NCBI RefSeq assembly: GCF_030936135.1
Contig: NC_082598.1
Location: forward strand, 13,272,687-13,336,686
Length of the DNA: 64,000 nt
DNA from: Gavia stellata
Lineage: Eukaryota > Chordata > Aves > Gaviiformes > Gaviidae
Direction: 5' to 3'
Under the pieces are notes generated by a model. The model searched no databases and was not told where the DNA came from. It saw nothing but the letters and a program-made list of their open reading frames with translations. A program made the position numbers and the translations under genes. Numbering within the stretch: position 1 is the stretch's first letter; every line of letters starts with the position of its first letter. Below, one piece after another: positions 7,628-56,000 of this stretch.

Positions 7628-8620
7628 TCATGAAGCATCCCTGGATATCCAGCCACTTTCTGTTAGAAAGTTTAAAATCCTTTTCTTCAGTACCTTATCT
7701 AAGTAACTGGGAAGGCGACTCTTTGAAGGAATTCCTTGTCTTTTTTGGAGATGGTCTTTAATGATTATAGTTTTCACAGTCACGTAACGTGCAGGACTCA
7801 AATTTAGAGAGCTGCAGAGCACCTTTTCCCTGTCCGATAAGAGTTCAAAGCCAGGCAGGTTTTCAATGGCAGCAAATTCACCCTCTTTACCATCTTCCTT
7901 CCCTCTCTTGGAACTAGCTATGTTTTTGTTCTCCTTCCTCTTTTCCCGTTTATGCCTGGCTGCCTCATATTCTGCAGACTCTTCCATTTTGGTGATTCCA
8001 TTTCGACGATACCGCTGCAACTCCCGAATCTTTGCTCGAAGTATCCTCTCCTTGTGCATGTTCTCAAAGAAGTCTTCAAACTCCTTACAAGACATGAACT
8101 GGTACAGAGGCCTCAGTTTCAGCCTCAACTCCTTCTCTTCTTTTGTGATCTTTCGTTTGGGAGCTTTCTCCTTGTCCTTTTTATCCTTCCCCAGAAAGGC
8201 CGGCACCAAGTTATAGTCTCGTGCAATGTTCTTCCGCCGTTGCCTCTCCTTGAGTTTCCTTACGTACATGTCTACGTGAGCTCTTTTTAACTCTATTTCC
8301 ACATCATCGTCGTCATAGTTCACCGAAAGGCCACTGATGAGAGTCTCCGCATCTTGATCGTATTCAATCTCATAGTCATCCCGAAGCGGCATGTATCCCA
8401 ACTGCTGCTGCTCAGCCACAGATATATCCAACGGTGGGAGCGGCGTGGTCAAGCTAGGAGAAAGCGGGCCGCCGCTGGGACACGTGTGATCCGTTACTCT
8501 GTTTGGAATAGTGTCAGGGATGCAGGCTTTTCCCAGGTTGCCATGGATATACATGCTCACATAGTGTTCCATCACCTCCTGAGGCGTTCGGGATGCCCCC
8601 ACATGAGCAGCCATGTCCTC
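7628..8620 (-). CDS. TADA2B: TADA2B exon 2: transcriptional adaptor ADA2b, residues 91-420
   Basis: This is the terminal coding exon of ADA2b, the adaptor that couples GCN5/PCAF to SAGA-type histone acetyltransferase complexes in the nucleus. It begins after the acceptor tttag (complement of 8621-8625) with GAG GAC ATG, continuing the SANT domain (EDMAAHVGASRTPQEV). It then runs through a serine/proline linker, an acidic block (DDYEIEYDQDAE, YDDDDVEIELK), the basic helical ADA2 region (KLKERQRRKNIARDYNLVPA, IRELQRYRRNGI) and a C-terminal SWIRM domain (about residues 330-420, ending NFLTESGWISRDAS). TGA is at 7628-7630. With exon 1 it gives exactly 420 codons, the usual vertebrate length. No lesions are seen. 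Confidence 0.97.
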   Translation of the reverse strand, partial: EDMAAHVGASRTPQEVMEHYVSMYIHGNLGKACIPDTIPNRVTDHTCPSGGPLSPSLTTPLPPLDISVAEQQQLGYMPLRDDYEIEYDQDAETLISGLSVNYDDDDVEIELKRAHVDMYVRKLKERQRRKNIARDYNLVPAFLGKDKKDKEKAPKRKITKEEKELRLKLRPLYQFMSCKEFEDFFENMHKERILRAKIRELQRYRRNGITKMEESAEYEAARHKREKRKENKNIASSKRGKEDGKEGEFAAIENLPGFELLSDREKVLCSSLNLSPARYVTVKTIIIKDHLQKRQGIPSKSRLPSYLDKVLKKRILNFLTESGWISRDAS

Positions 8621-9876
8621 CTAAATGGAAAATAAGGAGGAGCGATAAAATGATTCCCATTACATCTCCTGCATGACAGGCACTCAGGTAAGAGCATGAC
8701 TCCTTCCCTGCTCCTCAAAAGCCAACTCGCAATACCTAAACTTTTCTAGCAGTACTTAAATTAGCCACATTTCCGTAAGATCTGCATTTGTAGGTCCAAA
8801 TAAGTATTCACAAGTGCACGAGGCATGTAAGCCATGAAAACAGCACCAGCAACATCACGAAGGCAAGCTGCATTAGATCCTCTGGGTACAGGAACACCAT
8901 CGAGACACTGGATCCGCATGGTGATTCCTGAGCATCCATCACTCTCTCAAAAAGTCAGCTTACCATCACCAGGAAGCTTTCTAAGTCCCAAGCCAGCACT
9001 GAGATCACTACATCGTTTGGATTTTGCTCACTTATATTGCACTACCAAAGTACTTTTAGAGCAACATAGAAATAAAGAAAGACAGTATTTACAGTAAGAA
9101 AGATAACATTTACTCTTTTCTAGTTATTTAAGAACTAACCCAAGCTACAACGATCATAAACTTTAAGATTTTTAAGAAGTCTTTACATTTAACAAAGCAA
9201 GACATAATCAAGTAACAATTAATGAATCAAATGATGATGGTTTTTACTACTGTTTTTTAAAAACGAGCCTGACTGTATACTGAGACAGAAGGCAAGCAGC
9301 AAGTTTACAGCTGTGACATCCTGAAGGAAAAGACCAAAACCAAGAAGAAGAGGGTATAAGATCTGTAACACAGCCAGGCTGGGGGGAGGGCATATGCCGG
9401 AACCTAAGGTAGCGACAGGTCCGAGAAGCCTGAAGCGCTCCTTTGACCAGCAGCTCTCCCCATGTAGCCCACGTAAGGCCACCGGCCCGGCACGGAGCCG
9501 CCTGCACCTGCCAGCCAGAGAGGCTGCTGTCTCCGCAGCGCGCTGCGGGGGGGAGAGGAGGGGGCTGCAGAGCAGGACGTGACACCGGGGCCCCCCGCCA
9601 AGACCGCGCACGTCCCCCGCTGCTGCCAGGCCTGCGGACTCCCCGCAGCCCGGGCCGGCGGCCTCCCTCAGGCCGGTCAGCGGCGGCCCGCTGCCCCACG
9701 CACCCGTGGCCGCCACGCCGAGCAGGGACGATGCACCCTCGGCACGGGGGAGCGTCCGCCGCAGGAGGGCCGGCCCGCCGCGGCCTGAGGGGCGGCGCTG
9801 CCCCACTGGGCGCTGGTCCCTCGCTGTCAGGCGCGACGCGGACCCCGCCGCCGGCAGCCCGCCCCGCGGCCCTTAC
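8621..9876 (-). other. TADA2B: TADA2B intron
   Basis: A single phase-0 intron of 1256 bases with donor GTAAGG (complement of 9871-9876) and acceptor TTTAG (complement of 8621-8625). The end nearest exon 1 (about 9390-9876) is very GC-rich and belongs to the CpG island. The exon 2 end is AT-rich. The many long ORFs in the GC-rich part come from scarcity of stop codons. Confidence 0.9.
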
Positions 9877-10146
9877 CCAGTTGCCGAAGCCGAACTGCTC
9901 GATGGCGTCCAGCAGCAGCTGCTCCTCCCGGCTGCTCCAGCCACCCTCGGCCTCGGCGCCCCAGAGGGTGAAGCGGCCGCCGTCGACGAGCTGGTAGCCG
10001 TGCCATCGGCGGTGCGGGCCGATCTCGGCGCCCGCCGAGAAGCAGTCGGGGCAGAGCTCGATGTCGGCGCACTCGGTGCAGCGGAAGCGCAGGGAGCTCA
10101 CCTCGGCCAGGCAGTACACGCAGTACTTCTTCCCCAGTTCCGCCAT
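9877..10146 (-). CDS. TADA2B: TADA2B exon 1: ADA2b residues 1-90 (ZZ finger and start of SANT)
   Basis: The ATG is at 10146-10144 in good context (A at -3, G at +4). The exon encodes 90 codons and ends in TGG just before GTAAGG. It contains a complete ZZ-type zinc finger: C9, C12, C23, C26, C32, C35, H45 and H49 are all present with family spacing. A GGRFTLWG segment follows, then the SANT domain, whose tryptophans W70 and W90 are visible. The phase-0 junction joins W90 to E91 of exon 2 inside the SANT domain. The start codon is 423 bases from the divergent CCDC96 start. Confidence 0.97.
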
Positions 10147-10149
10147 CTT
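10140..10149 (-). promoter_or_regulatory. YY1-like site over the TADA2B start codon
   Basis: The minus strand reads AAGATGGCGG, matching the YY1 core, and it includes the TADA2B ATG. YY1 sites at or just after start codons are common in TATA-less housekeeping promoters. Assigned by motif only. Confidence 0.5.
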
Positions 10150-10171
10150 ACCCCGCCCGCCGACAGGCCGT

Positions 10172-10181
10172 GCGCATGCGC
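10172..10181. promoter_or_regulatory. NRF1-like palindrome
   Basis: GCGCATGCGC is a perfect palindrome and the core of the NRF1 consensus. It lies 26 bases upstream of the TADA2B ATG, so it is probably near the TADA2B transcription start. Motif evidence only. Confidence 0.55.
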
Positions 10182-10205
10182 CGACACGCCCCCCCGCCAG
10201 CACCG

Positions 10206-10386
10206 CCAATGGCAGCGCGCCCGACGGGCGGAGCCCCACGACGGACGGCCAATGGACGAAGAGGGCTTGGCCCTCCTCTTGGACACCCGGCCAATGGGGC
10301 CAATGCGCCTGGGCGCCAGGGTTATCAAAACGAATGAACGGCTCGGATTGGCCGACCGGGCTCCGTCTTCCTTTCCCGCGACCAAT
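10206..10386. promoter_or_regulatory. Cluster of six CCAAT boxes (NF-Y type)
   Basis: CCAAT occurs at 10206-10210, 10249-10253, 10291-10295, 10300-10304 and 10382-10386, and ATTGG at 10347-10351. Several have the CCAATGG or CCAATCGG flanks favoured by NF-Y. Six in 181 bases of GC-rich DNA is far more than expected by chance. Confidence 0.7.
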
Positions 10387-10468
10387 CGGAGAGGCTACCC
10401 CCAGCGACCCCGTCGCTGAGTGGTAGTCCGAGGCGAGGGGGCGCGGCCGAGCCGGCGCCACGGGGAGA

Positions 10469-10494
10469 GGGGCGGGGCGGGGCGGGGCGGGGCC
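10469..10494 (+). promoter_or_regulatory. GC-box / GGGGC tandem array
   Basis: Five tandem GGGGC units form overlapping Sp1/KLF GC boxes about 80-100 bases upstream of the CCDC96 start codon. The G-runs could also fold as a G-quadruplex on the plus strand. Confidence 0.6.
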
Positions 10495-10527
10495 GGCCCG
10501 CCCTCCGGCCGGCCGGCGGGGCCGAGT

Positions 10528-10547
10528 CCCGTTGCCCGGGCAACGGG
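10528..10547. promoter_or_regulatory. RFX X-box palindrome upstream of CCDC96
   Basis: CCCGTTGCCCGGGCAACGGG is a perfect 20-base palindrome. Its core, GTTGCC-CG-GGCAAC, equals the two-armed X-box bound by RFX factors, the main regulators of ciliary genes. It lies 22 bases before the ATG of CCDC96, a cilium protein, so position and gene class agree. Confidence 0.75.
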
Positions 10548-10569
10548 CGAAGCGGGGAGCCGCCCAGCC

Positions 10570-11490
10570 ATGGAGGCGGCGGCGGGAGGGCCGGAGCTGG
10601 AGCAGCCCGAGGGGCCGGCGGGGCGGGGGCAGCTGAGCCCGGGTGCCCCAGGGGAGTCGCCGGGGCCCGAGGTGCTGGGCGGGGCGGGGGAGCCCGCGGA
10701 ACCGAGGCCGGAGGTCCCGGCAGGGCCGAGGTCCGAGGAGCCGCCGGGGCCCTGCGAGCCAGAGAAGCTGGGGCTGGAGGAGTCGGAGCCGCCGGGGCCC
10801 GAGGAGCCGCCAGAGCCGGAGGTCGCAGCAGGACTGCCGGGGCCCCCCGCGGCCGCGCCAGCAGCCGGCGGTGCCGAGGAGGAGGCGGCGAGCGGCGGGG
10901 ACGGTGCGGCGGGCCAGGCGCCTCCCGCCGCGCGGGCTGAAGGGGCCCCGGGCCCCCTGGCGCCGGCCGCCCCCGGCGGAGCCGAGCGGAGGAGCGGCGA
11001 GGAGGCGGGGGAGGCGCCCGAGGAGCGGGACGGCGCGGAGGAGGGCGCGGAGGAGCGGCGGGAGCGGGCGGCCCTGCTGGAGCAGCACCGCGGGCTGGCG
11101 GGCGAGCGGGAGCGGCTGCGGCAGGCCAGCGCCCGCCTGCAGCTGCGGCTGGGCGAGCTGCTGCGGCTGCGGCGGGGCGAGAGGCGGCCGCGGGCGGAGC
11201 TGGGCGCGGGCGGGCCGCAGCTGTACGGCCAGCGCCTCCGGCGGCTGCGGGAGCTGCGGGAGCAGCGGGAGCGGGCGGCCGCTGCCTGCCGGGAGCGGGT
11301 GGCGGCCCGGCGGCGGGGCGGCGAGGAGCGGCAGGCCCAGGCCCAGGCCGAGTGGGCCGCCTTCCAGGCCCGCAAGAAGGCGGTGGCCGTCTTCAGCCTA
11401 GGCCGGCGGCTGGGCGGCAGGGAGGCGGCGGCCGAGGCGGTGGACCGCATCCAGGCCAGGGAACGGGACAAAGAACAGCAAGTGCGCGAG
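10570..11490 (+). CDS. CCDC96: CCDC96 (CFAP184) exon 1, residues 1-307
   Basis: Coiled-coil domain-containing protein 96 is a cilium/flagellum-associated protein reported to act with CCDC113 at the axoneme and centriolar satellites. The start at 10570 (gccATGG, good context) is the only in-frame ATG after the open GC-rich leader. Residues 1 to about 160 are low-complexity Pro/Glu/Gly/Ala, probably disordered. From about 165 the chain turns into Arg/Glu/Leu/Gln-rich coiled coil (LLEQHRGLAGERERLRQ, LRRLRELREQRERAAAACRE). The exon ends at QQVRE before the donor GTGAGG at 11491. If unspliced, the frame stays open to a stop at 11680-11682. GC content is extreme, so this half can easily be lost from assemblies. 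The gene call rests mainly on exon 2 and synteny. Confidence 0.9.
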
Positions 11491-11789
11491 GTGAGGCTGA
11501 GGCCCCGGGTCGAGCTGTGGCTGCGGTCTTGTCTGTCCCATCTCTACCTATCTTCTCTTGTCAAAAAGGTCTCTGACGAGGCCAGCGTTTTGCTCTTCTT
11601 ACAGCCAGGGAGGGTACTTTCTTCCCCTGACATCTACCACTCGGTCTTAAACAACACATGTACGATGCTTTTCTCCCCTTGAAGCTTTTTATTATTGTCA
11701 TGCCTTATTTTAAACAGAAGCACTTCCTCCCTGGCAAGGCAAGGACTAAAGAAATGAGAGTCATTCTTATTTTATTTCTCCTCCTCTAG
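11491..11789 (+). other. CCDC96: CCDC96 intron
   Basis: 299 bases with donor GTGAGG and a strong acceptor, tttatttctcctcctctag, at 11771-11789. Phase 0. Splicing joins two coiled-coil segments in frame (QVRE to ARVENIKL). Retention would replace the conserved C-terminus with about 63 unrelated residues. Confidence 0.85.
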
Positions 11790-12344
11790 GCCCGCGTGGA
11801 AAACATCAAGCTGAAGCATGAAATCCAAACTCTTGAAACCATCTTGAAAGCTCAGGGAGAACTGGTCGACAGTCAACATTTTATGGACTTGGAAGACATG
11901 AAGAAAGAGAATCAGAAACGCAGCGAAAAGATTGGCGACCTCAGTGATGAAATCCTGAAGCTCAAAAAGAAGGTATCGAACGCAGTACATATTCTCAGCC
12001 AGTTCAAGGAAAAACTACAGTTTGTGGAAGCTGAAAATCAAGGCAGAAAGGTTGAACTGATGGACATTGAGATAATCTTGTCGCAGAAGAGAGACGTTCT
12101 GACCAAAAGCAAACAGGCCAGAGACAGACTGCAGAGAAACAATCTGAAACTGCAGCAGAAACGTGGGTTGCTTGGAAATGAGATACTGCTTCGGGACTTT
12201 GAGGAAATGGTGGGTAGCGTAGAGCTGCTAAGTCAGCGACTGGAAACACTGAAACATCACCATGCTCGTCTGATCCTTACTTGTAGGGGAATTCAGAAAA
12301 AAATCAAGGAAGCCAATTCCTCTTTCCTTGCTGAGGATGGCTAA
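11790..12344 (+). CDS. CCDC96: CCDC96 (CFAP184) exon 2, residues 308-491
   Basis: This exon encodes the conserved C-terminal coiled-coil domain shared by CCDC96 and CCDC113 (DUF4201 type). Recognisable blocks are ENIKLKHEIQTLE, LEDMKKENQKRSEKIGDLSDE, FKEKLQFVEAEN, LTKSKQARDRLQRNN, GLLGNEILLRDFEEMV and LETLKHHHARLILTCRG. It reads from GCC after the acceptor AG at 11788-11789 to TAA at 12342-12344. The two exons give 491 codons, somewhat shorter than the human protein as I recall it (about 555). The difference probably lies in the low-complexity N-terminal half. Confidence 0.93.
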   Translation, partial: ARVENIKLKHEIQTLETILKAQGELVDSQHFMDLEDMKKENQKRSEKIGDLSDEILKLKKKVSNAVHILSQFKEKLQFVEAENQGRKVELMDIEIILSQKRDVLTKSKQARDRLQRNNLKLQQKRGLLGNEILLRDFEEMVGSVELLSQRLETLKHHHARLILTCRGIQKKIKEANSSFLAEDG

Positions 12345-21700: not shown

Positions 21701-22724
21701 CAACTTATGACCAAGACCAGAAGGTAAATGCAAAATAAGCTGTGAGGAAAGCCATGTCAGGGAGGAAATGCTGGCAGTGTGCTGCTCTCAGCTGGGCAGT
21801 GCAGGTTGTGCTCCCCCTTATACACAACATAAGGCTCAGAAGGCTACAATCTAATCTACTGCAAATGTTAAAAATCCTCATCTGAAATAGCAAGCTGGCA
21901 GTCTCCCCCATCTACAGGCAGATTATCACTACAGGAAAGAACCATAAACTCCCAAACCCACTACATTTAACAACACTTCTCAGTTTTACTGCAAAAAAGA
22001 ATGGATAAACTGGACAGAGCTCTATTACAGCGTATTTCATGAAGCAGGCTGTATTACTTCTTTCAAGGGAAAAAAAAAATGAGTTTACACTCCAAATGCT
22101 ATGGAATACATTTGACTTAACTCTCCAGCATGATGGCTGTTGCAGCCACTTAACAACTTCCACATTCAGATGACACACTTCCATCTTTTTTCTTTAAGCT
22201 AGAATTTAGTTGGAATTACAGTGATGAGACTACAATTTTTGAAGTAAAGGATTCAGTTCTCAAATCCAGTGAAGAAGTCAGAGATGTAGCCACTTCTTTA
22301 CAGCCCAAATTTAGGCAAACTAGATCCTCAAGCATATTAAGATAATGACTGTATGATGATGTGTCCTGACAAATTGTCATCTTCTCCCAAAGAGTGAATT
22401 TCTGCTTTTAAATACCAAATTGTAATGCTGCTAGCAGCCTTTGTAATTAAGAAGTTAAAAAAGCCATATGATACTTTACTTCATTGACTTCACCCAACAC
22501 TGCAATTCTGAACGTTGACTTGAGCTCTCCCTTTCCAGAGAAGCAGCAGCTCAGGGAATCCACTCCCCTGAATGCATAGTAAAAGCAAGGAGTGAGCTAC
22601 ATAGTCCTACCTGCCTGTAAAATCAAACACTAGCTCTGCTAAAACATTTTTCCAGATGTTGCCAAACCCCATTTTCGTGAGTATGGTACAATCATCTGTT
22701 ATCAAAGATCAACATCCTCTTTAC
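18754..22724 (-). other. TBC1D14: TBC1D14 intron
   Basis: Intron of 3971 bases with donor GTAAAG. It contains several chance ORFs, the longest 131 codons on the minus strand at 20206-20601, without splice support or recognisable similarity. No repeat family was recognised. Confidence 0.85.
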
Positions 22725-22983
22725 CTGAGCCCACTTTTTGTTTCTACTTTGCATCTGAATGGCAGCAATAGATGTGAAGAATTCTTCTGAAGGCAAGTCC
22801 TCTGGTAGTTTTGTTAAAAACTGGGCTATATGGATGAAATCCATTTTGGTCAAAATATCTTCAAAAAGTTTTAATATTCCCAGGGCTGTACGGAATAAGA
22901 ACTCCTCTCCATCACGACAGAACACATCCCAGACACGACATGCCAAGTCTAGTGGCAAAGATTTGCTGTACAATGTGAATATC
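22725..22983 (-). CDS. TBC1D14: TBC1D14 exon, residues 306-392 (C-terminal TBC domain)
   Basis: 259 bases starting with G that completes W306 from the preceding exon. It encodes [59 protein letters not shown] and [12 protein letters not shown], the helical C-terminal lobe of the TBC domain. Acceptor ttttcag is the complement of 22984-22990, and donor GTAAAG follows WAQ. Phase 0 at the 3' end. Confidence 0.96.
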
Positions 22984-24546
22984 CTGAAAAACAAGAGTAA
23001 AATTTTCAGAGTTACTGCACAAGAAAAAACGTCTTGGATACTCACAAAAGTACACCGACTGATTATTAGTTAAGTCTGAGGCTTCTCAAATATTTGTATC
23101 TGGATACTTTTTTATTTCAAAAGTACTTCTATTATTTGCTGCATAGCAATACATGAAACAACATAAAATTGTACAACAGTTAAGGCATCTTGCTACCAGT
23201 CTGGGTCTCCAAGTCTAATTTTCTCGGATCACACCAGAAGAAACAATATACATGGTTTTTTGATGGACATGCACTGGCCACAGGTATAATCAAAGGTGTA
23301 TTTAATCACCACTTCAGAGTTGACGACTGATACAGTTTTAGCTGCGAGAACACAAAAAGAGGAACCTTTTTTGAAGAGCAAATGGAATTTTGTGGATCAA
23401 ATGAAGGAGCTGTGTAAAATTAACTCTGTGTTCCAGGCTTGATTGACTGGCAAAGTAATAATACCATGAGTTTTGCAGGAAAGATCAGTTCAAACTCTAG
23501 TGAGTTGAAAGAAACAGGCAAGATACCCAGAGAGAGTGCATAGATAGCTGTGGTAAGATGGTGGCTCAGCGTGCTTGAATGGATGTGCTCCCCAAAGAGT
23601 AAAGGTAACAGCAGAATCAAGAACCTCCTCCCAGTTGCTAAAACTGCATTTTCATCAACAGCCAAGAGCACACTTCTTCCTTCGTCATCAAAATGCTGAC
23701 AGCCTTGCAGCCAGGAACATGAAGATGCTCCCTACTCCCTCCTCTATCCAACATTTCGCTACAAGGCAGAGCAGTTTTCATTGCCACTAACAACGTCACA
23801 ACAGCAAGTAAAGAGAATTAAGTTTCCTGGAATCATGTTACAGTATATCAGGGCAAAGAGTTACAGTGATTTTTTTCCTTCAGAATTTAGAGAGAGAACA
23901 TTTCTCTGCACACACACGGCATAAAAGATCTCTGCAGGTAATTCTTTCTCCGGCAGAGGTCAGCAAAGCCTCAAATTTAAATAAAACATTTCCACATCTT
24001 CTAACGCAAAATTTCTTTTCAAGTGTGCTGAATCAAACAGTAGTTCTCTTGTGTTTAAGACTCCCCGCTGTTCCCTCCAATTTTTTATTTAGGAAATTCG
24101 GGTTTACATTAAAAAAATACAATGGACCATATATATACACACACAGAGATATATAGGTATAGAATATGAATGAATATATTTTCACAGCAAATTCTAATAA
24201 TCAAAGGTTTTCTGCAGTATCTGCTTTTTACTATATAAGATTATTTGAATGATGTGTCATCAAGTATCCGGCTTTCTCTGTGAATCAGCGCTCTTTAGGA
24301 AAATGGGAAAACATATTCATTTTACAAGCAGCAAGACAAGACTAAACCATTTGCACAAATTCAGGTGACAAGTAAATTGCAGGTTTAGGATCCTTAGGAT
24401 TTTCCTTTTCGTATTTTTACACCTTATTGCAATGTTTTCATAATAAGTGGAAATCGTTTAAATGCTGTTCGCCAAAAAGCTAAATTAGAAATATAAAAAC
24501 AAGCAAATAAGAGGTAGAGTCTGGGATGAAAAAAACCACTATTGTG

Positions 24547-28290: not shown

Positions 28291-29439
28291 TTATACCTAA
28301 ATCTTACACAGTTAAATACCAACTCCGCTGTCTAACAAAATTAAAGAGAGTGGGACAACCTGTTGAGCTCAAGAAAAGTGTGAAAAAAGTTTAATATAGG
28401 ATTGGGCAGGACTACCTCAACTAGTCTACATTCCTGCGCAAGATCATAGTGTTGTGATGGGGAGGAACACAGTAAATTGTCCTTGGGATTAAAATAAACA
28501 GCTTTAATGTAGATGCAGGTAGTCAGCAAGAAATGCTAAGGGCTGTCAGTCCATTTATAAAAGACCTTGAGAAGCACCATCCACAATCACTCCTGGCAGG
28601 ACTTTCTTTCAAATGCTCTTAACAATACCCACAGAAGGAATGAAAGGGGGGTCTGATGTGCCCCACACACTCAGACTTCAACACATCAGTTCTTTGCTCA
28701 TCAGTCAGTCATTTTTCCCCTTTTTTTTAACCCTATAAATGTGCTCAGAGAGAACAACTGATCACATAAACGTTTACTCAAGAAAATACAATAAAGACTA
28801 ATCTATCAAAGCAAAATTGCTGAGGGGAATATAAACCTCCAACCTTCTGTCAAAACAGTCTTTTTCTAAATCTCCAATTTCTGGTGTTGTTACTCAAGAT
28901 TTCTTCTTTACAATGTAAAGCTCAAAGTTAGACAACAGAATGATATTAACACGCCTGCACCATGAAGACACTTGGTTTCGTCTCTCCAGCATAAAAAAAA
29001 AATCACCTTATTTATGACAGCATGATTAATATTAAACCAGTAATCCATTAAAAAGATTATAACCTGGTGATTTTAATGTTGTCTATCCAGTTATTCTCCA
29101 TCACATTTACAGTCTTCCTATTCTGATATCCCTTTTATTCAATTGCTTCCTCCACACACAGGCTTTTCACAACAATGTCTGAGGCAATACAATTTCAACA
29201 TCTTTCCTCTTATCACTGAACATACCGGCCTCTGCCCTCCTCCTTCCCTTCTATCCTATTCCAGTATTTTTTCTACCATCTTCCTGCTTGTGCATAGATC
29301 TAGTTCAGTTTAATATTCTCAGCCTTCCTTCCGATGGTATTTCTTCCATTAAATGTTGGGAGAAATGAGCCTATCCATTACACACCCCCTCGTTCTCCTA
29401 CACATGTTGCATTAAAATTTAATCACAGTGTAAAAGCCA

Positions 29440-31470
29440 AGTCAAACAAAGCCCATGTTACACTATCCTCTGTGCAAGAGGCATATGAAAATCAAGGAAC
29501 TCAGGCAAAGGCAGCAGGAGGTCAGTATGAACAAGATGAACAAGAACCTCCTGACAAAACTCAAATATAAAAAGGAAGCATATAAGAGAGTGAAGGAGGG
29601 GCAGATGACCCTGGAGAAATACAGAGACATTGTCTGTATATGCAGGGAAGGCGCTAGGAAAGCCAAAGCCCATCTGGAGTTGAATCTGGCAATGGATATT
29701 AAGGACAATGAGAAGGGCTTTCCACAGGTATATCAGCAGAAAGAAGAGACTCATGAAAACATGAGCCCGTTGCTAAATGGGGCAGGGTACATGGTGACAA
29801 AGTACATGCAGAAGGCTGTGGTACTCAACTGCCTTCTTCATCTCGGCTTTTACTGAGAAGACTTGCCTTCAGAAATCCCAGGTCCTCCAGACCACTGGGA
29901 AAGCCTAGCGCAGAGAAGCCCTACCTTAGGCGGAGGATGATCACGCTAGGGAACATTTAAACAAATTGGGCATACACAAGTGCACGGGACCTGGTGAGAC
30001 ACACAGGTGAGTGCTGAGGAAACTGTCTGGTGTCATTGTGAGGCCACTCTCAATTATCTTTGAAAGGTTCCAGTGATCAGCGAAGGTTCCTGAGGACTTG
30101 AAGAAAACGAATGTCACTCCTATCTTCAAGAAGTAGGATCCAGGGAACTACAGGCTGGTAAGCCTCACCTCTGTTCCTGGGAAAGTAATGGAAGAAAAAT
30201 TTCTGGAGATCATTTCAAAACATATGATGGGCAGAAAGGTGATTGGGAGAAGTCATTATGGATTTATGAAAGCAAAATCATGCCTGATCAACCTGATAGC
30301 CTTCTACAATGAGATGACTGGCTTTGTGGATGAGGGGAGAGCAACGGATGTTTTTTATCTTGATGTTATCAAGGCTTTCAACATTGTATCCCATAAAATC
30401 CTTGTTGATGAACTGATGAAGTATGGACTAGATAAATGGACAGTGAAGTGAACTGAAAACTGGCTGGAACTGCCAAGCTCAGAAGGTTGTCATTAGTGGC
30501 ATGAAGCACAGCTTCAAGCCAATCCACTGGTAAGAGTACTCCAGAGTTTGATACCCATCCAATACGTTTAAAGGTCTTCATTAAGGACCTGGATGATGGG
30601 TCAGACTGTACCCTCAGCAAGTTTGCAGGTGATACAAAACTGGGTGGAGTGGTCGATACACCACTCCATAAGGACCTTGAGACACTGGAGAAATGAGCTA
30701 ACATGAGTCTCATGAAGTGCAACAAAGGGAAATGCCAAGTCCTGCACCTGGGGAGGAAAGAAGCCTGGGCACCAATACATGTGGGAAGCCAACTGGCTGC
30801 AAAGCAGCTTTGCGGAAAAAGACATACAGGTCCTGGTGGACAAGAAGTTGAATGTAATTCAGCAACATGCCTTTGCAGCAAAGAATGTCCACAAACTCCT
30901 GGGCTGCATTAGGAACAGCACTGCCAGCAGGCCAAGACAGGTCATCCCTCCTCTCTACTCAGCACTGGAGAGCCAGCTCTGGGCTTCCCAGTACAAGAGA
31001 GACCTGGATATACTGGAGCAAGTCCAGCTTGCCATGAATACAATTAAAGGCTTGAAGCATCTGATACCCAGGAAGAGGCTGAGAAAGCTGGGACTATTTA
31101 GCCAGAAAAAGAAATGGCTCGGACCTAAATGTGTAAAAATACTTGGCAGGAGGGTGTAAAGAAGTCAGAGCCAGACTCTTCTCAGTTGTATCCACTGAAA
31201 TGACAAGAGCCAAAGAGCACAAATTGAAACACAGGAAATTCCATTTACACATAAGAAAATAAAAAACTTGTTCACTGTGAGGGTGGCTGAACACTGGAAC
31301 ATGTTGCCTGGAGAGGTTGTGGAGTCTCCATCCTTGAAGATATTCAAAACTTGACTGGACAAGCTCCTGAGCAACCTGCTCTAGCTTACCCTGCTTTAAG
31401 TAGTGGGTTTAGACTAGGTGATCTCTAGAGGTCCCTTCCACTGCCCCAGCAATTCTATGATCCTATGAAA
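29440..31470 (+). mobile_element. CR1-type LINE relic (5'-truncated ORF2 and 3' end)
   Basis: Fragments of a CR1 non-LTR retrotransposon protein occur in order on the plus strand. They are a segment before the reverse transcriptase (KKEAYKRVKEGQ, ARKAKAHLELNLAMD, 29.5-29.85 kb), the RT core (HYGFMKAKSCLINLIAFYNE, FYLDVIKAFNIVSHKIL, 30.25-30.4 kb) and the catalytic-box region at 30622-30642. Downstream CR1 segments (RNSTASRPRQVIPPLYSALE, EHWNMLPGEVVESPSLKIF) follow. It ends with the typical CR1 tail, gtgatctctagaggtccc and an ATTCTATG-type terminal repeat near 31450-31468. Frameshifts and stops separate the blocks, and the second residue of the FADD box is Gly instead of Asp, so the copy is dead. 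It lies antisense to TBC1D14 inside an intron. Confidence 0.9.
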
Positions 31471-49127: not shown

Positions 49128-52100
49128 AAATTTGTAATGAATTTGCCGCTTCTAGAAACCACCTGCTTTCATATGTAGCTTGTTTGTACCATTCGTATTA
49201 AAATAAAAAAAAAGAGGAAACTATACTGTGAAAACTAATAATTATAAATGAGCACGATGAACAGTGTTCCAGCGCGTGGACTTTTTCCTGTTAGCACAAA
49301 CAGCTCCTCAAATGGTACTAATTTCTTTCTCTCAACCTAACCTGTCAATTACGTCAAAACTTCCTTGGGCAATAGATCCAACCTTTCCAACGTAATCAGA
49401 ACAGCCTGGATCATTCAGAAACTAAAACGGGATCCCTACCACTTCCAGAAAGGCCTTCTCCTCCACCACCACCTAAAAAAAAGGATGGATGAAAACCACA
49501 CATGAATGCAGAGCAACGTGGCTGTAGTTTTGTACTCTGTCATACAATTCAATTCTACTTCAAGCTAGTTCTGTGGGACTCATGAGTGCAGGTCTGTGAA
49601 GCTCTCGGGACACAGAAAAACCCCTTTTTCCTTGTTAACTGGGCACTGTCTCAACAATCAATCTTATGATGCCTGCATTGCTGTGACCGGAAACATTGTC
49701 ATGAATTTGGAATGTCTGGCTCATTAATACCAGTTAATACTGCTATGCATGACATCAATTTGAAAACAAGCAAAAGAACCAAGAAAAACGTATTTCAACT
49801 ACTGAATAGTACTTAGCTTTGTTAGTAAAGGGATAGCGCTCATGTTGACAAAGCTGTTCACTGAGAAAAAAACCTCCAGCGAGAAAATAAGCAAAGAAAT
49901 ACAGTAAAAAAGGTATTGCGATCAACAGCATGTTCAGAAAGCTAAGACATTATTCTTGCATTAGTAACTCCTTGCAAGCAGCTGATAGTGACGACTGTAT
50001 GAGTGCACCATCATAACGTGCTTCAGCTGCACCATCAACTGCAGAATATATCCACTGTGCTGACAGGAATGAAACAAATGGCTATTCTTTCTCCCAGTTT
50101 CTATTAGGAGACTGATTTTTTTATTAGCTGTTTTTCACAAATTAACATAGTCAAATATTAACCTCTATTACTGCTTCCTCAGACAAGGTGAATCTTGTCC
50201 CTAAATCTAATGGTTTTACTCCTTTGAGACACTACTTGTGAAAGAAAAACCATCTGGCAACAAGAAGAAACTATAATATGAAGAAATCATCATATATTGA
50301 TCTCCCTAAAGCATCACAGAACTTGACATTAAGACACATGCACCCAATGCTTATTACAATAGAAGCTCCAGAAAAGCTGTTTAATTTTGGCTTACAAAAA
50401 TTATTTTCAGGGTCTTCTTTCATTGAAAGCCAACTGCAGAGCAAAATTCTTTTGGAAGGTGAGAAAAACTGTTCACACTGGGCTGCAATGGGGATTTTAG
50501 TCCATACAGTAGAGTTAATTTGAAAATCTCATGCAGCTAAGCAGAAAGTCTTCCAGACCAGCACTACGTACATCATTCCTCCAAGAACTTCTTGGTTAAG
50601 GAATGTTTTATTTTGGAACATGGGTGGCTAGTTACAGTATTGGCATATTAGTACAGTTATTCCAACCTCTTAAAGAGCAAAAGCCCACCCTGCATTTCAC
50701 TGACGTGTTCTACTCAGCACTACCCTACAGTAAAGAAAACAAACCAGCACAAAAATGGGAGTGGCACATTTTATCAGATTACGAGTCCTTTGTAGTAAAT
50801 TCATCCTTTTCAGTGGTAGTCAAAAAAGAATAAAAATGTCTGGTGGTCTGTCTGTATCTACAAAACTGTTTTTTAATAAGCGAAAATTACAACACAAACA
50901 AAAAAACCCCCACTCCACCCCCAAAAATCCCAAACAAAACAAAATGCCCAAAATTCACAAAAGACAAAAGCTCATGAAAATGATCTTTTATTCCAGTGAG
51001 AAGAGAATGCAATTTTGAACTGAGCACAACGTACAATACAGCAATGAAGCACATTGAAGCCTCCACAAACTCTTATTATTAAGAGTATCTGCTGACTGAG
51101 CAAGTAGAAGTATTTGCACATACAGACATACTGCAATAGGCTGAACCACACAATAGCTCATTTTAAGCTTTTTCTTTTTTTAAAAAAACCAGACTCGAAT
51201 TTCTCACAGATACAAATAATTCAGCATCTATTTAAATCCTATACCATAATTAGGGGTTACTAACCTGATATGGTTGCAAGTTAATTTTAGGATCAATTTA
51301 GGATGAGCTGGTCGTTTATGATTTAGAATACATCATTATCACCCAGATCAGTTAGGCTTTCTTCCAGGTTTCGTCTTAATCTACCCAGCATTCAGCCACA
51401 ATAGCTGAACTAGGGTTTGAAGATGTTCTAAGACAGTGTGCTGTAGATTAAAGCACTGATTTAAAAAACCCAAACCAAATAAACAAAAAACCCCACAGAA
51501 ACACACCCCCCCGAAACCAAGTTTAATTCTGGGTGGAACCTGGCAGCTTTGCAGTTGAGGTGCAAGATGCTTAAGTTGTGGTGATCCTCCACAATTCTTC
51601 AAGAAACAGAAGCTAAAGCTAACCTGCAAGGGGATCCTAAACCATCTCTGCGGAGAAACACAAGTAACCCACCAGAACACAGGGCAAGTGCTACAAGATG
51701 AACCGGGAGAGGGCTGTGTGACTTCGCACACGCTCCGAGCCTCCCCGGGGACCGGCAGCACGGCATAATTGAACCTACAATACCCAAACTGCTCTATCAA
51801 GGTCATCTTGTTTTGGCCCTGTTTGTTTAAAGGTAACCACTCTCCAAGGAAGTCGAATACTTAATATTCATGCTAGGCGACAGAGTGGCAAACACCAGGC
51901 TGCCCGACCCGTGCTCCATGGCGAGCAGCTTTGCACGGGATGGGAGATGGCTGGCCGTAAGCACACCCGTCGGTTCCCGGCTGGCAGCCTCCACGCCAGA
52001 ACAGCCCAAGCCCCGGGTGGGCCTGTGCCGCCGCCTTCCACCCCCGGCCGGGGTCTCGCCGCCCCGCCCCACACAAAGGGGACCCCCTTCCCGGGAAGTT

Positions 52101-52266
52101 CGTTCTCCACCGGACCCAGCAAGGCGATTTAAAAGGGAACAAGGCTGGCTTTACAGATACGCGCTGAAGTCCGCGCCCACCCATCCCGTCTCCCCCCGAC
52201 CCAAGCGCCCAGCAGCCGCCCGCCCCGCCCTGCCCGCACCCACACCCCCACCGCGGCCTCGCTCAC

Positions 52267-52269
52267 CAT
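52267..52269 (-). CDS. TBC1D14: TBC1D14 short-isoform start codon (ATG ending the first exon)
   Basis: On the minus strand this exon ends TTC ATG and is followed by GTGAGC. Joining it to the phase-0 exon at 47825 gives ATG GAA TAT GAA, with G at +4. In-frame TGA at 52287-52285 blocks any upstream extension. The resulting 413 codons equal the length I recall for the human short isoform. The 5' end of the exon (the transcription start) cannot be placed from sequence. Confidence 0.75.
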
Positions 52270-52284
52270 GAAAGCTACGGTCCT

Positions 52285-52311
52285 TCACAGGCAGCGGCGC
52301 CGGAGCCCCAT
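52285..52311 (-). other. Upstream ORF before the TBC1D14 short-isoform start
   Basis: Nine codons including the stop, MGLRRRCL then TGA, with strong initiation context (G at -3 and G at +4). It is in the same frame as the main start and ends 15 bases before it. It matters only if transcription starts above 52311, which the window does not show. Confidence 0.5.
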
Positions 52312-52437
52312 GCCCGCCCCGCACCGCGGGCCTGGCTCCCCGCCGCGGCGCCGCCCGGGCCCGCACGGCCTCGCGGGCCGCCCGCCCGTCCCGACCCTGC
52401 CCTACCCGGGCCGCCCTCCGCGGGCGCAGCGCCTCCG

Positions 52438-52463
52438 CCCGTCCCGTCCCGTCCCGCCCCGCC
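52438..52463. repeat. CCCGT/CCCGC pentamer array
   Basis: cccgtcccgtcccgtcccgc and following ccccgcc: five near-identical pentamers in the CpG island, G-rich on the gene strand. Confidence 0.7.
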
Positions 52464-52614
52464 AGCCCCGCTAATCACCCGCGGAGCCGGCGCACCCGAT
52501 CGGTTCTCTCCGTCTCGCCCAGCGCTGCCTGAGCACGCGCGGCGCGCTCGGCGGCGCCCCAGGGGGAGACGCGGCCCCGAGCCATCGGCCTCGCCCTCAC
52601 CGCGCGGGGGAAGC

Positions 52615-52648
52615 GGCCCCGGCCACGGCCCCGGCCCCGGCCCCGGCC
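52615..52648. repeat. GGGGCC hexanucleotide tract
   Basis: On the plus strand GGCCCC, GGCCAC, then three GGCCCC and GGCC. On the TBC1D14 sense strand this is an interrupted GGGGCC repeat. It lies upstream of the short-isoform first exon. A G-quadruplex is possible. Confidence 0.75.
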
Positions 52649-53060
52649 GGCGGGACACACGTCCCTCCCCCGCCCGGACGCCCCGGGGAGGCAAGCGCTT
52701 GCCCTGCCAGGCGCCGTGCTCCCCCTGGCACAAGCTGTCCGCCTCCTGTGCCGCTCGAGCAGCTGCTTCCCAGCCCGCTTCAGGTCTAGGTCCAAGGTGG
52801 GCAACTGAAACATTGCCCAAGCTCACGTGCATTAGCTACGGTCATCGTTAGCTTTGCCTAAACCAGCCCAGAATTACATGTCCTGTTTTAGGACGCAGCC
52901 GAATTTCTTAGACGCTGGCGTCTCTCTCCATTGGTTTCCCACACCCGCGCTTCCCCGCGTCCCTGGCTCCAAGTCGGGCGTCCGCTCGTAGCGGGTGCCG
53001 CTGCCCCCCCCGCCCCGTGCCGAGGCGGCCGCTGTCACAGTGCCAAGTGCAAGAGCAGCC

Positions 53061-56000
53061 AAAACTCACAGGCCCTTAAACCGGTCCCGAAGAAACAGCA
53101 GCAGTGTTATGCTGAAATACTTCCTACGGCATAAGCACCTTTTCAGTACAACTCAGGCTCTGTCCTCTTCAGACAGCTCTAAAAGATGTATCTTCCACAG
53201 TTCAGACAACTTCCACATCACATCTTGTTAAATATTTTGCCTCAATCCAGATGAAGTAAGCTTGCCATTTTTCCTTTGTCCAAAAGCTCCATTCCCTAAC
53301 TCAGGGGAGATACCCAAGTTGCTGTGGCACCATCTTTGGTAGACCCACATTTTATCCCATTAACTATTCATCTGCAACCGTCAGTTGTCCTTTTCTCAGC
53401 ACTGTACCAAGGATTTCGTATTACTTAATCTCATTGACTACGGTGTGCAGCTGCCAGGCTGCATTGCTCAAGGCCTGATCCTGAACCCCAAAGTGAGCGG
53501 CAAAGACAGACTCAATACCAACCAAAGTCACTTAAGTATTCTACTTTCAAGAGGTGGCTTTGCAAAAGCTGAGATAACGTATTTTCTCAAAATTGCTAAC
53601 TGTTTTATCAGCTAATGTTTTCAACCCCAACTTCTCATCTAATTCACGGATGCAGCTATATGTCAAATGAGGAACAGCTCGCTGTTTAAAAGTACCTTAG
53701 CTTCATTCCCACCACCACCAATTAATTAGAGACATCCGCCATCCAAGCACCTGGTGTCAGAGCACTAATAATTACCTCAATAGCAAGTCAACATAGCTCA
53801 AGAAAAGCACTACAGCCTCCAATGCTAATGCTTTTTCTCATAAGCTATCTGAAGCAGTAAATTATCACAAATATCAAAAGATATCTATATAAAATTATAG
53901 CTCTTAACACAAAAAACCTTCAGATCTTGAGGAAGAGCAACCTTACGTGGACAACAGTATTCCTACGGCAAATGCCTGCGGTTTCACATGCTGAAAATAG
54001 AACAAAACTGCAGCTCTTCTGGATGTAGGAAATAGCCATTTGTCAATCCACAAAAAGAGGAGCTCAATCAACTATGCATTCTGCAAAACACTGATTGGGA
54101 GAGGGTGATGCCTGGTGACGTGGGAAGATACTTCTGTGAGTGAAAAGCTAAGTACGCTCAAACCATAGCTAGCCACACATCACACAAACATTTGGTAGCA
54201 GTCACTATTTTTAGGCTGCCGCAATTATAAGACTACCTGAGGCTACTCAAACAAGTTATGCACAAGCTTTAATTACATGATATTTTTTCCACTGGCATTC
54301 CCACCTCATTCAGCGCACGAGATAGGAACTGGACCAGGATTGCACAAGCAAACAAAATTGTTTTTTCCTGGTTTTTGAGTCTGACTGCTACCTGAATATT
54401 GCTTCTACTTTCCCTTCTGTTGCTTCATAGCCTTTTACTACATGTCCATCTGTCCATCTGCAATCTCTTGCCTTTTATTTATAAAGTGGTTTACCAGATA
54501 AATTTAAGCTGGTACACACCCAGCACTTCACTGACATCCCCTGCCCTCCTGGCCCCTCACACCATTTTTTTTTTGTGCCACTGTAAGTAGTTGTGTGTCT
54601 GTACAATACACTAGATTGGGGATATGATACTGCTAAAAACTAACCTTTTGTTTTGTTGGATCAGTTTGGTTTCTCTGGTAACGTCTGCTACGAGGCAATG
54701 TAAAAGTGGAAGTAAAAGGAAGGAAAAGGAACAAGCAGCAGGACTGTTTCTTTCAGCAGCTTAACTGAAAACAGCAGATCCTGAAAATTCTGATGATCTT
54801 GGGGTTGGCAAACTAAGATCTGATTCCTGACATGGCACCAGGCCATAAAAAACTAATCTTGCATATACAGTGATCAAAGAGAATTTAAGGAGACTGACAC
54901 CTCAGGCAAAGATCAGATTATGAGAATATCCTTCAAAACTTAACAGAAAGAGAAAACAAACTGCTGAGCTCAGATATTAAACTTTCAAACAACTCCTTAA
55001 GATGTATGTATGAGGGCTTTTTTATAACTCCAAAACCAGTACAGAACTATTCTGAAATGCAATTAGTTACTGATCTAACAACCTGAGAAATCCGAGTTGC
55101 ACACTCACACACTCAACCCGCACACTTTGCCAAAGTGATCTGGCAAGTTCTACAATTAATTAAAGGTTCAAGAACCATGAGCCCTCCTTGCTTTACCCAT
55201 ATATATATTTCATCCTCTTACATTATAGAAAGGATACCAGAGCAGAAGATAGACATGTGATGACATGACTGAAATAACATGATGTGCGTGAAGTTTTATC
55301 TTCCACCAGGATATCCTTCTCGTCTTCAGTACCACAGTATTCTCCTGTTCCATACTTAAATTAGGAATGCTTGAGCAGTATAAAGGTAAGAGACTATGGC
55401 CAGTTCACAAGGAAAACCTGACACTATCTATTTTTAGGTATCATTTCAAGTGCTCTGAAATTTCCCTCTTTTTCCCTGAGAAGTGCCTACTTCTCTATTC
55501 GGATTACAGGTGATACGGAACTTGGGCTTGCAACTGTGGTGCCATACAATCACACCAAAGTTAAATGAATAAAATAATGCACGCATCTTCCAAAAGGTTA
55601 ACAGTAAAGAGAGGACTAGAAGCCACATACTCTGCTTTGCAGTCCTGTGCTCCAGCCACTGGATTATTTTAAGATTTTTTAATACATGTATTTTTATAGC
55701 ATCATTATTTTGAGCAACAGAGGCATCAAATTAAGGAACATTTAAAACCTAAGCCTAGATGAGGCCAAGTTAGGTCTTCCAAGAAAGAGTAACAGTTTGC
55801 TGTTTTGCAGTCTGTCACATCTAATCATGCAATGTGCTACGTATCAGATGGTTTTCATCCTCAGGGTTCATGTTTCATTTGTGCTATATGTAAATAATTT
55901 AAGTGCTTTTTGGTTCATATAGAGTTACACGCTTTATTAAAAAAAAGGAAGGAACCTAGAATAGTTCCCTGCATTTGAAGTACTCTCAGAGATAAAACAT

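Follow-up and report, generated by a model that had tools for sequence, protein, structure and literature searches.

RFX sites at ciliary and bidirectional promoters

In Xenopus, RFX motifs far exceed all others in enrichment within 100 bases of the starts of multiciliated-cell genes, and similar enrichment was reported for human, mouse, zebrafish, fly and a cnidarian (PMC5245798). The same work described Rfx2 as stabilising FOXJ1 at multiciliated-cell promoters, often without strong forkhead sites, and its authors likened multiciliated-cell genes to housekeeping genes in their chromatin layout. RFX2 sites in mouse testis lie very near the starts of most targets (PMC4498915), and for human X-boxes a robust window from -500 to +500 around the start was given (PMC5838959). 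In mouse skin, 266 RFX2 peaks accounted for 328 gene promoters because some of these promoters are head to head, and many of the head-to-head ones are ciliary or mitochondrial (PMC10362062). Bidirectional CpG-island promoters in general are enriched for factors including NRF1, YY1, NF-Y, E2F4 and Sp1 (PMC4730256).

The first-pass annotation of the window (the whole 64,000-base stretch of DNA analysed here) had proposed an X-box just before the ciliary gene CCDC96, on the premise that RFX sites lie close to ciliary gene starts, which is what PMC5245798, PMC4498915 and PMC5838959 lead one to expect. Given this literature on motile-cilia promoters, an X-box before CCDC96 is expected and unsurprising. 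RFX at cilia promoters, including head-to-head ones, is already in print, and the CCDC96/TADA2B pair would be a new instance. By way of caution, the name CCDC96 is absent from the main texts of the RFX papers PMC3889689, PMC4498915 and PMC5838959. Among the matches listed in a search of openly available full-text literature, none described an RFX site at CCDC96 or a promoter shared by CCDC96 and TADA2B, although three of the listed papers contain both gene names.

The CCDC96/TADA2B locus

CCDC96 and TADA2B stand head to head on opposite strands within one CpG island, and the divergent genes are less than 1 kb apart as measured between their start codons (Table 1). Downstream of the candidate site, the first CCDC96 exon matched no Pfam family by itself; the second matches PF13870 (CCDC113_CCDC96_CC; E 1.3e-25) and the chains assigned to CCDC96 in 9fqr (E 9.5e-49) and in 8j07 (E 9.2e-43), both of which we take to be axoneme structures. 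These matches bear out the earlier naming of the gene, and its description as coding for a ciliary protein finds support in Tetrahymena, where CCDC96 is ciliary (PMC7987202). Two alternative donors also keep the joined frame open, giving 488 and 497 residues; with all three leaving open frames, the donor at 11490/11491 is the likeliest and is a prediction. Human CCDC96 is presumably a single-exon gene, and the 299-base intron in the present gene may show intron loss or gain between lineages. GC content falls from 0.82 in exon 1 to 0.45 across 11491-12300. No relatives of exon 2 were found among 8 pattern-matching viral-contig stretches or 58 genome-contig stretches. Genome-wide, the CCDC113/CCDC96 domain was found at the CCDC96 locus and in two pieces at a single place on contig C15, which is presumably CCDC113, the partner of CCDC96.

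On the other side of the interval, the exon 1 frame matches chains of Transcriptional adapter 2, including 6cw2 (E 9.6e-11), and codons 7631-8620 of the downstream exon match PF22941 (TADA2A-like; E 8.8e-29) and PF24533 (Ada2b-like C-terminal; E 2.7e-10), so that the identification as TADA2B is sound. By eye, a half X-box, GTTGCCATGG, is present at 8537-8546 within this coding exon. The gene pair is flanked by a GrpE exon (1040-1417) and a TBC-domain exon (22692-23069), which, from the human neighbourhood, we take to belong to GRPEL1 and TBC1D14, respectively. Farther away, open frames at 29434-31159 resemble, by eye, remnants of CR1-type LINE reverse transcriptase, and 51800-52850, where numerous open frames overlap on each strand, looks by eye like another GC-rich island, perhaps a gene promoter; the consensus scan of the window found no full X-box there.

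Table 1. Positions of the features discussed, in window coordinates unless another sequence is named.
Feature	Position	Strand	Basis or remark
TADA2B downstream exon	7628..8620	-	Pfam matches
TADA2B exon 1, start codon at 10146	9877..10146	-	ADA2 chain matches; donor placed by eye
YY1-like AAGATGGCGGA, overlapping the TADA2B start codon	10139..10149	-	Consensus match
Interval between the CCDC96 and TADA2B start codons, 423 bases	10147..10569		GC 0.757, CpG observed/expected 0.97
NRF1-like core GCGCATGCGC	10172..10181		Consensus match
Six CCAAT boxes: 10206, 10249, 10291, 10300, 10347 (minus), 10382	10206..10386		Pattern match
E2F-like TTTCCCGC, adjoining a CCAAT box	10372..10379	+	Consensus match
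Four overlapping GC boxes GGGGCGGGG	10469..10492	+	Consensus match
Full X-box GTTGCC-CG-GGCAAC, candidate RFX dimer site	10531..10544		RFX consensus match
CCDC96 exon 1, 307 codons, ATG at 10570	10570..11490	+	Open frame; joins exon 2 in frame
CCDC96 intron, GT-AG, 299 bases	11491..11789	+	11490 joined to 11790 gives a 491-residue frame
CCDC96 exon 2, including the stop codon	11790..12344	+	Pfam and structure-chain matches
Perfect X-box GTTGCCGCGGCAAC, GC-centred, in a CpG island	L022 4996-5009 (C6:26160145)		Genome scan

Read from the TADA2B side, the interval carries YY1-like, NRF1-like, CCAAT, E2F-like and GC-box motifs, and then the X-box. The search patterns for YY1, NRF1, CCAAT/NF-Y, E2F, GC box, TATA and forkhead are assumed to represent these sites. 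Three of the six CCAAT boxes satisfy a stricter NF-Y pattern, and TTTCCCGC is one of three TTTSSCGC matches in the window; at 10100-10640, there was no match to a stricter NRF1 pattern, to TATAWAW or to either forkhead pattern. The interval thus has the make-up of a bidirectional promoter, with a CpG island, no TATA match and motifs of NF-Y, NRF1 and YY1 type (the strict NRF1 pattern excepted), and the earlier view of a promoter region common to both genes agrees with this compact head-to-head arrangement. The NRF1-, YY1-, CCAAT- and GC-box-like motifs are of a housekeeping type and, judged by sequence, probably serve TADA2B and basal two-way activity.

The candidate X-box

The sequence at 10528..10547, CCCGTTGCCCGGGCAACGGG, is a 20-base perfect palindrome, identical to its own reverse complement and built around the GTTGCC-CG-GGCAAC core, as had been noted on first reading. 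It is the longest perfect palindrome in the window and the only one of at least 18 bases, and it contains three CpG, one of them in the spacer. Its end lies 22 bases before the CCDC96 ATG, a distance that confirms the earlier figure and is counted to the start codon, not to a transcription start; 384 bases separate the X-box from the TADA2B start codon. The 16-base sequence CGTTGCCATGGCAACG, which we take to be the usual in-vitro RFX motif, agrees with the site at 14 of 16 positions, the sole change being the central AT to CG. Replacement of the usual AT spacer by CG calls for caution, as it counts against the X-box reading. The core is also the sole match in the window, on both strands and over all 64,000 bases, to GTNRCC-N0-3-RGYAAC, which PMC3414849 quotes as the reported consensus of human RFX1. 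The site accordingly fits the sequence consensus of an RFX X-box and adjoins a gene coding for a ciliary protein.

Chance expectation was assessed at two levels. From local base composition, the window should contain 0.0013 exact copies of GTTGCCNNGGCAAC; with up to two mismatches, two matches were found (the other one at 53318, carrying two mismatches) against 1.9 expected from shuffles, which makes degenerate matches to this sequence meaningless. Promoter-sized sequences, 20,000 each, were then generated from order 1 and order 2 Markov models trained on the island at 9351-11500. A strict X-box with a 2-base spacer appeared in none under either model, GTTGCC-N0-3-GGCAAC in 1 and 0, and the looser RFX consensus in 38 and 32 (order 1 and order 2, respectively), whereas perfect palindromes of at least 20 bases appeared in 72 and 94 and those of at least 14 bases in 2618 and 2686. 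The improbable part is therefore the fit to RFX, palindromy alone being only moderately unlikely in such GC-rich DNA.

X-boxes elsewhere in the genome

In the 1.32 Gb genome, GTTGCCNNGGCAAC occurs at 153 places. Its reverse occurs at 8, an unfair control owing to the CpG in its arms; the control palindrome GTGTCCNNGGACAC was found at 63 places and the reverse of GTGTCCNNGGACAC at 205. As 153 falls between these two controls, abundance alone shows no selection, and no enrichment is claimed. X-boxes centred on C/G number 18 genome-wide, including the window's own, and 16 of these are in CpG-island-like DNA (GC and CpG observed/expected both 0.6 or more across some 500 bases, cut-offs applied by eye), as compared with 3 of 13 AT-centred places chosen by eye among 50 of the 153 (Fisher p 0.0005); three of the 18 are on stretches of 71-72% GC throughout, where the island test says little. 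We read this island bias as mostly a matter of composition, the CpG-bearing pattern surviving in islands. The sequence GTTGCCCGGGCAAC occurs at three places genome-wide, and the other two (L028 4992-5005 and L031 4993-5006) both lie in CpG-island-like DNA; no neighbouring gene was identified at either of them.

Of the other 17 C/G-centred places, 6 have a neighbour within 5 kb that could be named and 11 do not. Only one of the named neighbours is a cilia gene, namely LRRD1: an open frame about 0.6 kb downstream of the X-box in L022 matches LRRD1 in the structures 9fqr (E 3.9e-68) and 9ijj (E 4.9e-66), and 9fqr contains both LRRD1 and CCDC96 chains. This second instance speaks for the proximal X-box reading of the CCDC96 site. 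Among the neighbour searches, a joined query gave leucine-rich-repeat matches only. The other five neighbours, each with a Pfam exon within 5 kb, are a hexokinase, a phospholipid ATPase, a carboxylesterase-family gene, a CHHC zinc finger gene and a major-facilitator gene, the match of the last being weak and below its cut-off. With one of six named neighbours ciliary, C/G-centred X-boxes as a class cannot be taken to mark cilia genes. Inspection by eye pointed to VPS51 (L027) and, at an AT-centred place, to EML1 (L049), with no Pfam match for either.

Interpretation

We consider the palindrome likely to be an ordinary proximal X-box that RFX2/3 would use to raise CCDC96 in ciliated cells. Dimers of RFX2/RFX3 would bind the two inverted half-sites adjoining the CCDC96 start, FOXJ1 would be recruited through RFX2/RFX3 and not by binding a forkhead site itself, and CCDC96 transcription would rise as the cell builds motile cilia. 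The X-box lies where the head-to-head CpG-island interval borders CCDC96, and the remaining motifs of the interval appear to be of housekeeping type. The first-pass proposal that the site drives ciliated-cell expression of CCDC96 from a promoter shared with TADA2B stands in part: its observed side comprises the sequence and rarity of the site, the fit to the RFX consensus (quoted in PMC3414849), the gene identities, the ciliary role of CCDC96 and the geometry with TADA2B, while binding, activation and the direction of effect at the X-box are what we infer. An action confined to CCDC96, with two separate outputs from the one promoter as proposed on first reading, would go beyond these observations.

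That very GC-rich DNA produced the palindrome by chance, free of function, is improbable; palindromes of this length do arise in the simulated promoters, and many candidate motifs could catch the eye post hoc, but the complete lack of strict X-boxes in both simulations and the position upstream of an axonemal gene argue against it. Still less credible, and hardly to be entertained, is an action at the RNA level, in which a start upstream of the site would place an 8-pair hairpin in the 5' leader, 22 bases before the start codon, and damp translation. Folded by itself, the 20-mer reaches -13 kcal/mol, with 2 of 200 shuffles as good, and for the 91 bases at 10500-10590 only 7 of 200 shuffles fold as well; such a fold, however, follows from any perfect palindrome of like composition, another structure wins within those 91 bases, and the 51 bases at 10522-10572 are equalled by 80 of 200 shuffles. 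It would also leave the RFX consensus fit unexplained, and no Rfam match at gathering score was found in the 64-kb window. As a main reading, the hairpin was rejected on the fold-versus-shuffle results.

The alternatives that accept regulation at the DNA level deserve more weight. It is conceivable, if not the account we favour, that CCDC96 induction in ciliated cells depends mainly on E2F4/5-DP1 with GEMC1/MCIDAS at the E2F-like TTTCCCGC beside the CCAAT box, the X-box being a helper or dispensable. AD-293 cells are derived from HEK-293. In AD-293 cells, MCIDAS overexpression activates human CCDC96, and RFX2/3 are low in HEK-293 according to the authors (PMC10023806). Together with the E2F-like site at the present locus, this activation means that E2F4/5 may account for part or all of the specificity. 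On the other hand, E2F enrichment at multiciliated-cell promoters is weaker than that of RFX (PMC5245798), and CpG-island promoters commonly carry E2F sites; TADA2B may be the user of this one. The E2F/MCIDAS and RFX routes to CCDC96 are compatible. Rather unlikely, in our view, is use of the X-box in most cells and for both genes by the broadly expressed RFX1, RFX5 and RFX7, with no ciliated-cell switch; the CpG pairs of the 20-mer, including the one in the spacer, could then make binding methylation-sensitive. Probes with methylated CpG enriched RFX5 and RFX7 relative to plain ones and, relative to half-hydroxymethylated ones, RFX1, RFX5 and RFX7 (PMC13042984); broad expression was reported for RFX1-3, RFX5 and RFX7 (PMC5838959). 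RFX sites are not confined to ciliated-cell genes, and 15 of the 17 other C/G-centred X-boxes are in CpG-island-like DNA with the single ciliary neighbour noted above. CpG islands are usually unmethylated, however, and the gene at this site is axonemal, both of which weigh against such broad use. The proximal X-box for RFX2/3 is compatible with each of these two alternatives. A combined version, in which one CG-centred X-box drives both genes and RFX lifts CCDC96 and TADA2B in ciliated cells, with methylation of the spacer CpG tuning the response, is very unlikely; if it were true, the cilia programme would, by raising the SAGA subunit TADA2B, also lift a coactivator that it may use.

Should the proximal X-box act through RFX2/3 as proposed, CCDC96 in this lineage would join the direct RFX targets, and the locus would offer a compact natural case of one island with a housekeeping and an axonemal gene, useful for studying direction-specific X-box induction. 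The existing view of ciliary gene control is unchanged by the CCDC96 X-box.

Comparison with known systems

The closest described counterparts are the ciliary X-boxes bound by RFX2/RFX3 (DAF-19 in worm, Rfx in fly), which likewise consist of inverted half-sites with a 2-base spacer and lie tens of bases from the start codon with an axonemal gene downstream; the CCDC96 candidate differs in its CG spacer in place of the usual AT and in palindromy extending to 20 bases. The head-to-head promoters bound by RFX2 and MOF in mouse skin (PMC10362062) similarly comprise a short region between divergent genes, one of them ciliary, with an RFX motif, whereas the partner at the present locus is a SAGA subunit gene. 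Housekeeping bidirectional CpG-island promoters share with the CCDC96/TADA2B interval the lack of a TATA-like match, the CCAAT-, NRF1-, YY1-, E2F- and GC-box-like motifs and a spacing of less than 1 kb between start codons, but the present interval bears, in addition, a full X-box on its CCDC96 side.
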